Source of the DNA: Anaeromyxobacter sp. Fw109-5
GTDB taxonomy: Bacteria > Myxococcota > Myxococcia > Myxococcales > Anaeromyxobacteraceae
Direction: 5' to 3'
DNA: 64,000 nt
Assembly (NCBI RefSeq): GCF_000017505.1
Contig: NC_009675.1
Span: 3,972,501 to 4,036,500, forward strand
In this document: positions 48,915 through 57,026 of the stretch, piece after piece
How positions within the stretch are numbered: position 1 is the stretch's first letter
Layout: each line of letters opens with the position of its first letter
Position numbers and translations under genes: made by a program
Notes under the pieces: generated by a model
What the model was told of the DNA's origin: nothing
Databases searched by the model: none
The model's input: the letters and a program-made list of their open reading frames with translations, nothing else

Positions 48915-50153
<1,239 letters not shown>

Positions 50154-50233: not shown

Positions 50234-50848
50234 TTACTGCGCCTTCTTCTCCGTCGCCTTCGGCTTGTGCACGATCACTTCGTCGATGAGGCCGTACTCC
50301 TTGGCCTCGCCGGCCCCCATGAAGTAGTCGCGATCGGTGTCCTTCTCGATCCGCTCCAGCGGCTGCTTCGTGTGCTTCGCGAGGATGTCGTTCAGCTTCG
50401 CCTTGAGCCGAAGGATCTCGCGGGCCTGGATGTCGATGTCGGTGGCCTGTCCCTGGAACCCGCCCATCGGCTGGTGGATCATGATGCGCGCGTTCGGGAC
50501 GGCGAACCGCTTGCCCGCCGCGCCCCCGGCCAGGAGGAACGCGCCCATGCTGGCCGCCTGGCCGAGGCAGATGGTGGACACCTGCGGCTTCACGTACTGC
50601 ATGGTGTCGTAGATCGCGAGGCCGGAGGTCACCGAACCGCCCGGGCTGTTGATGTAGAGGCTGATGTCCTTGTCCGGGTCCTCGGACTCGAGGAACAGCA
50701 GCTGCGCGATCACCACGTTCGCGACGTCGTCGTCGATCGGGGTCCCGAGGAAGACGATCCGATCCTTGAGCAGGCGCGAGTAGATGTCGTAGCTCCGCTC
50801 ACCGCGGTGCGTCTGCTCGACGACGTAGGGCATCGGGATGTAGGGCAT
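50234..50848 (-). CDS. clpP: ClpP, proteolytic subunit
   Basis: The 204-residue serine protease has catalytic Ser in [14 protein letters not shown], His in [10 protein letters not shown] and the Asp in the following helix ([10 protein letters not shown]). It forms the tetradecameric chamber fed by ClpX. It sits 12 bases after tig on the same strand, so tig-clpP-clpX is probably one operon. Confidence 0.97.
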
Positions 50849-50860
50849 GGGACCGGGTTC

Positions 50861-52153
<1,293 letters not shown>

Positions 52154-52231: not shown

Positions 52232-52313
52232 TGGGCGGGGAGGGACTCGAACCCTCACGCCTCTCGGCGCCAGATCCTAAGTCTGGTGCGTCTGCCAGTT
52301 CCGCCACCCGCCC
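52232..52313 (-). tRNA. tRNA-Leu (anticodon UAG)
   Basis: Acceptor arms GGGCGGG/CCCGCCC, D arm with GGCAGAC, anticodon loop CTTAGGA (UAG), a long variable arm expected of class II tRNA-Leu, and T loop TTCGAGT. The CCA end is not encoded. It lies directly upstream of tig. Confidence 0.95.
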
Positions 52314-52379: not shown

Positions 52380-52787
52380 GTGACGGTCGCTCACCAGCAT
52401 GCCCCGGAAGAGAAGTGCCTGCCCGGCTGCCCGGCGTGGGCGGAGGGGGTGCTCGAGCTCTACGCGGTCCAGCACCGCTACGCCGAGATGCTGGAGGCCT
52501 GCCGCGCGGCCCAGGCGATCGAGTGCGTGATCGTCGCGCCGAACGCGTTGGGCGTGAAGCTCCCCGAGTACCTGAAGGACGAGGAGCTCGTCCGGCTGAA
52601 CCTGGTGGTGGAGCGAGACACCCCCGAGGTGCTGCTCGACGAGTGGGGCGCGCGCGCCGAGCTGACGTTCCGCGGGCGCCGCTTCGAGTGCGCCCTGCCC
52701 TGGCCCTCGATCAAGGCCGGCATCCTGCGTCCCCCCGAGCGCAAGCGCCCCCGTTTCGGCGTCATCGAGGGCGGCAAGAAGGACTGA
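52380..52787 (+). CDS. sspB: SspB-like ClpXP adaptor (candidate)
   Basis: This 135-residue protein starts at GTG 52380. It resembles the SspB core: CVIVAPNALGVKLPEYL for the segment around the buried strand, ELVRLNLVVERD, then RAELTFRGRRFECALPWPSI like the F-x-G-x-x-x-x-V-x-V-P stretch of SspB. The C-terminus ends RPRFGVIEGGKKD, which recalls the ClpX-binding tail of E. coli SspB (RPALRVVK). SspB delivers ssrA-tagged proteins to ClpXP, and this gene lies beside tig-clpP-clpX. The similarity is low, so this is a proposal. The N-terminal 40 residues, with two Cys (KCLPGCPAW), are unlike E. coli SspB. Confidence 0.55.
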   Translation: MTVAHQHAPEEKCLPGCPAWAEGVLELYAVQHRYAEMLEACRAAQAIECVIVAPNALGVKLPEYLKDEELVRLNLVVERDTPEVLLDEWGARAELTFRGRRFECALPWPSIKAGILRPPERKRPRFGVIEGGKKD

Positions 52788-52942
52788 GGAAGAAGGCTTC
52801 CGGCCACGGGCTTAGGGCTACGGAGAGGCTCGCGACGGCCGCTTCCCGACGTCTCGGGCCCGTAGCCTCACGCTCCGGCTGCGGGCCGCTCACGCGCCAC
52901 GAAAGTCGACGGGGACCCGGCTTTCGCCAGATCCCCGTCGTG

Positions 52943-53015
52943 TGAGCGCGGAAGGAATCGAACCTTCAACCTATGGATTAAGAGTCCATTGCTCTGCCAG
53001 TTGAGCTACGCGCCC
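52943..53015 (-). tRNA. tRNA-Lys (anticodon CUU)
   Basis: Acceptor arms GGGCGCG/CGCGCTC (one G-U pair), D arm AGCTCAACTGGCAGAGC, anticodon loop CTCTTAA and T loop TTCGATT. CCA is not encoded. Confidence 0.95.
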
Positions 53016-55979: not shown

Positions 55980-57026
55980 CTAGAAGACCTCGATCCGCGG
56001 CGGGTCACCCTCGGCCACCTCGCCGATGGCCACCGCCTGCACGCCGGCGGCCCGCAGCGCCTCGAGCAGCGTGCCGGCGCGGGCGCCCTCCACCGCGGCG
56101 AGCAGCCCGCCGTTCGTCTGCGCGTCGGCGAGGACGATGGGCGTCGTGGGGTGGAGCCCCTCGGCGAAGAGCACGTTCGGCCGGATCCAGCTCAGGTTCG
56201 CGCGCGAGCCGCCGGGCACCACGTCCTGCGCCGCGAGGTCGCGGACGCCGGGCAGGACGGGGATCGCCTCCGCGCGCAGCCTCAGGCTCACCCCCGAGCC
56301 CTCCGCCATCTCCCAGCCGTGGCCGAGGAGGCCGAAGCCGGTGACGTCCGTGAGCGCGTGCACGGCGCCGCTCGCCGCGAGGAGCTCGCCCGCCGTGCGG
56401 TTGAGCGCGCTCATCACCTCGATGGCGCGCTCGATGAGCGCCGCGTCGGCCTTCTCGCGCTTGATGGCGGTCGTCGCGATGCCGCTCCCGAGCGGCTTCG
56501 TGAGGAGGAGGACGTCGCCCGGGCGCGCGCCGACGTTGCGGAGCACGCGGTCGGGGTGGACGATCCCGGTGACGGCCATGCCGTACTTCGGCTCGGGGTC
56601 GTCGATCGAGTGGCCCCCGAGGATGGGCGCCCCCGCGAGCCGCGCCGACTCCGCGCCGCCGCGCAGCACCTCCCCGAGCATCTCCATGGGCAGCTTCGCG
56701 ACCGGCCAGCCGACGAGGTTCAGCGCGAAGAGCGGCCGCGCCCCCATCGCCCACACGTCCGAGAGCGCGTTCGCCGCGGCGATGCGGCCGAACCAGTAGG
56801 GGTCGTCCACGACGGGCGTGAAGAAGTCGACCGTCTCGACGATGGCCTCGGTGTCCGACAGCTTGTAGACGGCCGCGTCGTCGCGCGTCTCGGTCCCCAC
56901 GAGGGCGCGCGGCTCCTCGACCCTGGGCACGTGGCGCAGCACCTGCGCCAGATCCGCCGGGCGGATCTTGCAGGCTCAACCCGCGCCGTGGCTCATGCTC
57001 GTGAGACGGATCTTCTCGAGCTCCAT
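55980..57026 (-). CDS. selD: Selenide, water dikinase SelD, itself a selenoprotein (TGA at 56978-56976)
   Basis: The frame starts at ATG 57026. The TGA at codon 17 is read through: MSHGAG-Sec-ACKIRP corresponds exactly to E. coli SHGAGCGCKISP, whose Cys17 is the active-site residue. The rest is a textbook SelD: ETRDDAAVYKLSDTEAIVE, GGHSIDDPEPKYGMAVTG, LTDVTGFGLLGHGWEM and DAQTNGGLLAAV. The 348 residues match the normal length. SelD makes selenophosphate from selenide and ATP for Sec-tRNA. Since it contains Sec itself, its synthesis depends on its own product. A caller that stops at TGA reports only 55980-56942. Confidence 0.93.
56932..56978 (-). promoter_or_regulatory. Candidate SECIS element of selD
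   Basis: After UGA (56978-56976) two hairpins can form. The first is AGATCCGC/GCGGATCT with a 3-base loop (56968-56950). The second is a perfect 7-bp stem TGGCGCA/TGCGCCA (56950-56944 with 56938-56932) with apical loop GGUGC, 32 bases after UGA. The GGU at the loop start is the SelB recognition signature. The two hairpins share one base, so they compete slightly. Confidence 0.65.

Follow-up and report, generated by a model that had tools for sequence, protein, structure and literature searches.

The gene opposite tig, clpP and clpX in the genome of Anaeromyxobacter sp. Fw109-5 raises two questions: whether its product is an SspB adaptor of ClpXP, as a preliminary description proposed, and, if so, how it would reach ClpX and which substrates it would read. 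According to an excerpt of PMC7804408, most Proteobacteria have sspB and it is absent elsewhere, and the literature we searched contains no paper pairing Anaeromyxobacter with SspB. Here we analyze a 64-kb stretch of DNA (the window, in whose positions the coordinates below are given), part of a complete 5,277,990-base genome belonging to the family Anaeromyxobacteraceae, called f1 in our comparisons.

A conserved gene beside tig, clpP and clpX

The open reading frame at 52380-52787 represents a genuine gene, and it evolves under purifying selection. A genome search recovered relatives of its product in 91 of 99 genomes of the same order, comprising 22 of the 24 Anaeromyxobacteraceae genomes, with 61-87% identity to the window protein, and 69 of the 75 genomes outside the family, where similarity is much weaker. 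The two f1 genomes without the gene have completeness values of 74% and 81%, and the gene is present in all 16 f1 genomes with at least 90% completeness and at most 5% contamination. Forty positions of the protein are invariant across the 22 f1 members, and dN/dS values of 0.07-0.46 across 13 pairs of these members indicate purifying selection, so that conservation and selection together rule out a chance reading frame. The gene is single-copy, with one strong match to the canonical SspB profile in 22 of 24 f1 genomes. The possibility that these genomes carry another, canonical SspB was considered and rejected, as the remaining matches to that profile in the 24 genomes have E values above 0.01, and a search for plasmid copies found none. 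The gene and its surroundings are arranged as follows.

48915..50153, minus strand: clpX, with a zinc-binding domain that hardly differs between f1 and relatives with canonical SspB
50234..50848, minus strand: clpP
50861..52153, minus strand: tig (trigger factor), which adjoins the sspB-like gene in 22 of 22 f1 members
52232..52313, minus strand: tRNA-Leu(tag), between sspB and tig, in the same place in 17 of 17 f1 genomes scanned
52380..52787, plus strand: sspB-like gene, 135 amino acids, GTG start; identified from the open reading frame, its conservation and dN/dS
52942..53015, minus strand: tRNA-Lys, the first in a downstream block of five tRNA genes

The placement next to the clp operon on the opposite strand, pointed out in the preliminary description, is borne out: tRNA-Leu, tig, clpP and clpX all lie on the minus strand, and the proximity of tig is kept in every f1 member. 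The arrangement sets f1 apart from its relatives, since the same queries found tig, clpP, clpX or lon near sspB in 0 of 39 non-f1 loci. According to an excerpt of PMC7804408, trigger factor and SspB share a binding domain on ClpX in E. coli and overlap in function.

Two further observations concern these surroundings. A search with the ClpX N-terminus gave at least two matches in each of 30 genomes (L237-L266), mostly in long open reading frames; on this basis there are probably two clpX genes per searched genome, one of them by tig in Anaeromyxobacter. Further along the window, selD (55980-57023, minus strand) is itself a selenoprotein gene, with an in-frame TGA at 56976-56978, after SHGAG and before ACK, that splits its open reading frame under ordinary gene finding.

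Membership in the SspB family and predicted fold

Taken alone, the window protein matches no Pfam or NCBIfam model at E values up to 10, and a PF04386 search of its own genome misses it. The picture changes once its relatives are brought in. At the same threshold PF04386 matches 12 of the 22 f1 members, weakly (best E 4.9e-4), and all 39 relatives from other families (best E 7.7e-14); these 39, out of the 69 non-f1 relatives, were taken as full-length open reading frames and form our canonical set. All 39 also match NCBIfam models of the ClpXP specificity-enhancing factor, with values well below the model cut-offs in the one non-f1 member displayed. A profile of the canonical myxobacterial proteins matches the full length of the E. 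coli SspB entry in the PDB, tail included (E 6.5e-11), and hhalign joins the f1 profile to canonical myxobacterial SspB with 99.4% probability (E 4e-21) over 68 core columns, residues 46-113. By sequence, the f1 profile finds no SspB in the PDB, and its two matches there (E 1.6, RNA export factor) were taken as chance. The similarity to SspB first claimed for this protein, weak in the single sequence, is thus clear through its relatives, and the window protein is an SspB-family protein by descent. Its parts can be laid out as follows.

52392..52439, plus strand: motif HxHx5CxxxCPxW, residues 5-20, candidate metal-binding
52437..52508, plus strand: predicted helices, residues 20-43, in the place of the SspB N-terminal helix
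52515..52718, plus strand: SspB core, residues 46-113, profile-aligned to canonical myxobacterial SspB
52746..52784, plus strand: C-terminal motif RPRFGVIEGGKKD, residues 123-135, aligned with the motif that canonical relatives carry within their tails

AlphaFold2 monomer models give the predicted protein an SspB beta-barrel. With a mixed alignment of 10 f1 and 36 canonical sequences the model reached a pLDDT of 88, and with the 22 f1 sequences alone it reached 81. In Foldseek searches of the PDB with either model, the first 19 rows are all SspB chains, with a clear fall-off after them; the TM-scores against SspB are moderate (0.41-0.47 on the query). In VIA, 12 SspB entries score Z 7.5-8.7 and the next row 4.3. 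Because the f1-only model also leads to SspB, the canonical sequences in the alignment are rejected as the sole cause of the fold. Structure prediction, proposed in the preliminary description as the check on its claim, therefore points to SspB and not to an unrelated fold.

The comparison with characterized proteins shows what has been kept and what has changed. With the SspBs of E. coli and H. influenzae (PF04386; PDB 8ET3, 1OU8, 1OX9, 1YFN) the window protein shares the predicted barrel and the order of sequence around GVxxP and LN, but it has a different N-terminus and lacks both the long acidic linker and the terminal ClpX-binding sequence of the LRVVK type, as well as the segment that follows the last aligned strand (GTMFEPE in E. 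coli). Caulobacter SspB-alpha is a match at the level of the predicted fold (VIA, 2QAZ with Z 8.1 and 2QAS with Z 7.9) but is weaker by sequence: the canonical myxobacterial profile matches it at E 0.26-0.36. Its tail, too, is unlike that of E. coli SspB, and no HxHx5CxxxCPxW motif is known in it. The 39 canonical Myxococcota SspBs belong to the same family by profile, over the 68 core columns, and carry a motif similar to that of the f1 tail within their linkers, but they also differ. They begin with a short Lys-rich helix where f1 has the HxHx5CxxxCPxW segment, they carry a DAR-PGV signature (DARRPGV) of which DAR is replaced in f1, and they have a PEDxPxE segment, a tail with a median of 89 residues and an end of the HLRLVK type. 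In one complete genome, the canonical sspB (G078:C1:6163550-6164070) is matched in two frames and is therefore probably frameshifted.

A new N-terminal segment and a short tail

That the N-terminal part with KCLPGCPAW (residues 12-20) is unlike known SspBs holds across the family, as H5, H7, C13, C17, P18 and W20 are invariant in 22 of 22 f1 members. The segment is found in this gene only, in 22 of 24 f1 genomes, and a search for it elsewhere in f1 genomes gave only two matches, at E 0.04 and E 0.08, both stray. It is followed by the predicted helices that take the place of the N-terminal helix of SspB, which in E. coli is a dimer helix. The confidence of the models differs here, with a segment pLDDT of about 90 in the mixed-alignment model and about 63 in the f1-only model. 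All four Cys and His residues of the candidate metal site (H5, H7, C13, C17) are invariant; metal binding by this segment is possible, and the preliminary description suggested that it could bind zinc or substrate.

At the other end of the protein, the C-terminal ClpX-binding motif on a flexible linker is absent from f1 and a different conserved tail, RPRFxVIxGG, is present. A terminal ClpX-binding motif of the HLRLVK type occurs in 38 of 39 non-f1 myxobacterial SspBs and in 0 of 22 f1 members. The tail after the core has a median of 24 residues in f1 against 89 in the canonical proteins, about four times shorter, and the PEDxPxE segment of canonical tails is missing. What remains, RPRFGVIEGG, aligns not with HLRLVK but with an internal motif of the relatives, exemplified by RPRFSVVSG, RPALRAIDG and PRTFLREV ([RK]Px[LF]xx[VI]). 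The pattern [RK]xx[LF]xx[VI] is found in 33 of 39 canonical tails (shuffles: mean 1.7, maximum 6), a count that is descriptive because the pattern was written after viewing the sequences. Within f1, RPRFxVIxGG is highly conserved, and one member (L019) carries two copies of it on a long Pro-Ala linker. As an observation in its own right, canonical myxobacterial SspBs (L031-L069) often have two ClpX-binding-like motifs, one internal to the linker and one terminal.

Whether such a tail could dock ClpX can be approached from the partner. An excerpt of PMC7226468 gives LKxh as the feature shared by peptides bound by the ClpX zinc-binding domain, and internal LKxh is present in 22 of 39 canonical tails (shuffles: mean 4.6, maximum 13). 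This published consensus occurs in 0 of 22 f1 tails, which may be counted as a point against docking. Part of PMC12373786 indicates that the zinc-binding domain engages the SspB peptide at any position in the chain, and for that reason the internal motif could dock ClpX. A docking role for the f1 tail is possible because the internal motif itself resembles E. coli RPALRVVK. The proposal that the tail mimics RPALRVVK accordingly survives in part: the resemblance exists in the aligned internal motif, but neither the terminal motif nor LKxh is there (0 of 22 in each case). The partner has not moved with the tail; a 37-residue segment of the ClpX zinc-binding domain is the same in 11 f1 genomes and in canonical genomes bar one or two scattered changes, and no change of ClpX accompanying that of the tail was seen.

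The ssrA tag across Myxococcota and beyond

All 25 genomes first searched gave tmRNA-like matches. In this set ARAGORN assigns ANEPMALAA to all 12 f1 genomes, and 11-residue AND-type tags, mostly ANDNVELALAA, to all 12 non-f1 genomes with a full tmRNA. Overall, ANEPMALAA was read in 16 of 17 f1 genomes; the seventeenth (G056) has no ARAGORN call, and a simple pattern gives ANEPMINMATAAA. The f1 tag keeps AAN and ALAA but places three residues between them, against five in most relatives. The partner tag would be AANEPMALAA for the f1 protein, as opposed to AANDENYALAA for E. coli SspB, and an excerpt of PMC8512704 states that AANDENY is needed for E. coli SspB binding. Among the papers we searched, none contains the string ANEPMALAA, queries on SspB, the ssrA tag and Myxococcus gave matches that were unrelated as judged by title and abstract, queries on the evolution of tag and SspB gave nothing to the point, and none lists tag-contact residues of SspB.

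To place the f1 tag in the phylum, we used a sample of 156 genomes, with tags read for part of them. Of these genomes, 136 match the canonical SspB profile (counting f1) and 136 show a strong tmRNA match, the two sets not being identical. Long tags of the ANDNVELALAA type occur in most SspB-bearing families of the phylum. Among the genomes read, nine-residue tags are confined to f1 and two other families, f11 and f18 (tmRNA loci L071-L094 and L131-L197). All five readable tags from the eight f11 genomes are short (ANEPMALAA, ANSEMQLAA, ADSQMPLAA, ANNQLALAA and ANNELALAA), and both f18 genomes have ANENLALAA. Neither the canonical profile nor PF04386 finds SspB in f11 or f18, and the f1 profile finds none in the genomes listed for it, which are all eight of f11 and one of f18. 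A further family, f16, combines another SspB type (PF04386, E 1e-22 to 1e-37) with tags that are 10 and 11 residues long.

Counted by family, a short tag goes with the lack of a canonical SspB in three families and with its presence in none, and a long tag with its lack in two and its presence in 19 (Fisher p 0.005, or 0.024 without f1, in a test that takes families as independent although they are not fully so). Exceptions run both ways, and the link between tag and SspB is therefore not strict: four draft genomes have a long AND tag although no SspB was found (G107 of f12, G151 of f17, G149 and G171), and three f20 genomes and G167 (f26) have SspB but no AND tag, as does G169, whose tag reads oddly. 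The change in Anaeromyxobacteraceae is a single evolutionary event. As a separate observation, G007 has, besides its normal ssrA, a second tmRNA-like gene, which is weak and gives a long, odd tag reading (L096, G007:C41:108227-108545), perhaps on a mobile element.

The f1 tag is also found beyond this family. A scan of 84,980 species found 20 stretches of DNA encoding ANEPMALAA and a stop. Eleven genomes with such a stretch carry the f1 gene; no SspB match was found in seven Nitrospirae genomes with this tag, no SspB in the Myxococcales genome G099, which also has it, and no convincing match in a 3-Mb draft Myxococcales genome with the stretch. The tmRNAs of f1 are 84-99% identical to one another and 49-59% identical to those of G099 and the Nitrospirae, so that a recent transfer of the tmRNA gene among f1, f11 and Nitrospirae was rejected. 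In at least four Myxococcota families, sspB lies 88, 132, 188 or 273 bp from ssrA (G008:C142, G109:C122, G164:C201 and G154:C2, respectively), a sign that the SspB of these families serves the tag. In the genome of Anaeromyxobacter sp. Fw109-5, about 787 kb separate the two genes.

Discussion

Our results lead us to lean towards the view that the window protein is an SspB adaptor that has been remodelled together with the ssrA tag, or released from it, and that probably still works with ClpX. It is a divergent and shortened SspB, in which a new N-terminal segment precedes a single substrate-binding barrel and the tail is very short, and it would still offer a bound protein or peptide to ClpX as a ClpXP adaptor. 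Docking would occur on a short leash, through RPRFGVI or another surface, to the unchanged zinc-binding domain of ClpX. We are less sure that the ssrA tag is no longer read in the usual way, an idea that follows from the lack of an AANDENY-type segment in the f1 tag and from the presence of the same or similar tags in bacteria where no SspB was found. The adaptor would then either have been re-adapted to AANEPM or have moved to other substrates, the second being slightly more likely, and the N-terminal segment would be part of the new reader. Because AAN and ALAA are kept, the f1 SspB might still bind its own tag.

At present, we entertain tentatively the possibility that SspB has been uncoupled from trans-translation: the tag would have lost the half read by SspB, while the adaptor would have been kept, with a new Cys/His reader (possibly for metal or redox sensing) and a short, non-canonical ClpX tether, for other ClpXP substrates beside trigger factor. 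According to parts of the respective reports, SspB delivers an RseA fragment in E. coli (PMC8138137) and MucA with AlgU in Pseudomonas (PMC13251409). It is more doubtful that the protein is a co-adapted ssrA adaptor, with a groove re-adapted to AANEPMALAA and a short tail that forms a weaker or differently shaped tether to ClpX. Adaptor and tag did change in the same family, the gene was never lost in 16 high-quality f1 genomes, the tag retains AAN at positions 1-3 and ALAA at its ClpX end, and in four other families 88-273 bp separate sspB from ssrA. However, the same tag in seven Nitrospirae genomes and G099, where no SspB was found, indicates that it was not made for an adaptor; the spacer between AAN and ALAA has three residues in place of the five of most relatives, and sspB and ssrA are some 787 kb apart in the window's own genome.

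We consider it improbable that the protein has left ClpXP altogether, its barrel serving elsewhere as a peptide- or metal-binding module and its place by tig-clpP-clpX being inherited or accidental. Such a departure would agree with the new invariant Cys/His segment, with the lack of both the terminal ClpX-binding motif and LKxh (0 of 22 each) and with the solitary position of the gene amid tRNA genes, on the other strand from clpPX. Yet RPRFxVIxGG is highly conserved and present twice in L019, as expected for a docking motif, and the ClpX domain that trigger factor shares with SspB in E. coli, in an excerpt of PMC7804408, fits a common pathway. A functionless, degenerate relic heading for loss would account for a shortened, divergent protein whose usual ClpX-binding end is gone, but this explanation is very hard to reconcile with dN/dS values of 0.07-0.46 in 13 pairs, retention in 22 of 24 genomes and 40 invariant positions.

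If the remodelled or released adaptor that we favor is confirmed, Anaeromyxobacteraceae would offer a natural case of a degradation tag and its adaptor changing together, with an adaptor apparently retained after alteration of the tag that it usually reads. The comparison itself yields a testable rule for Myxococcota, with long AND-type tags where SspB is canonical and nine-residue tags where SspB is altered or not found. In addition, a short-leash adaptor could serve tag engineering, and the comparison draws attention to a double motif in the tails of canonical myxobacterial SspBs. What makes this locus interesting above all is that adaptor and tag have changed together.
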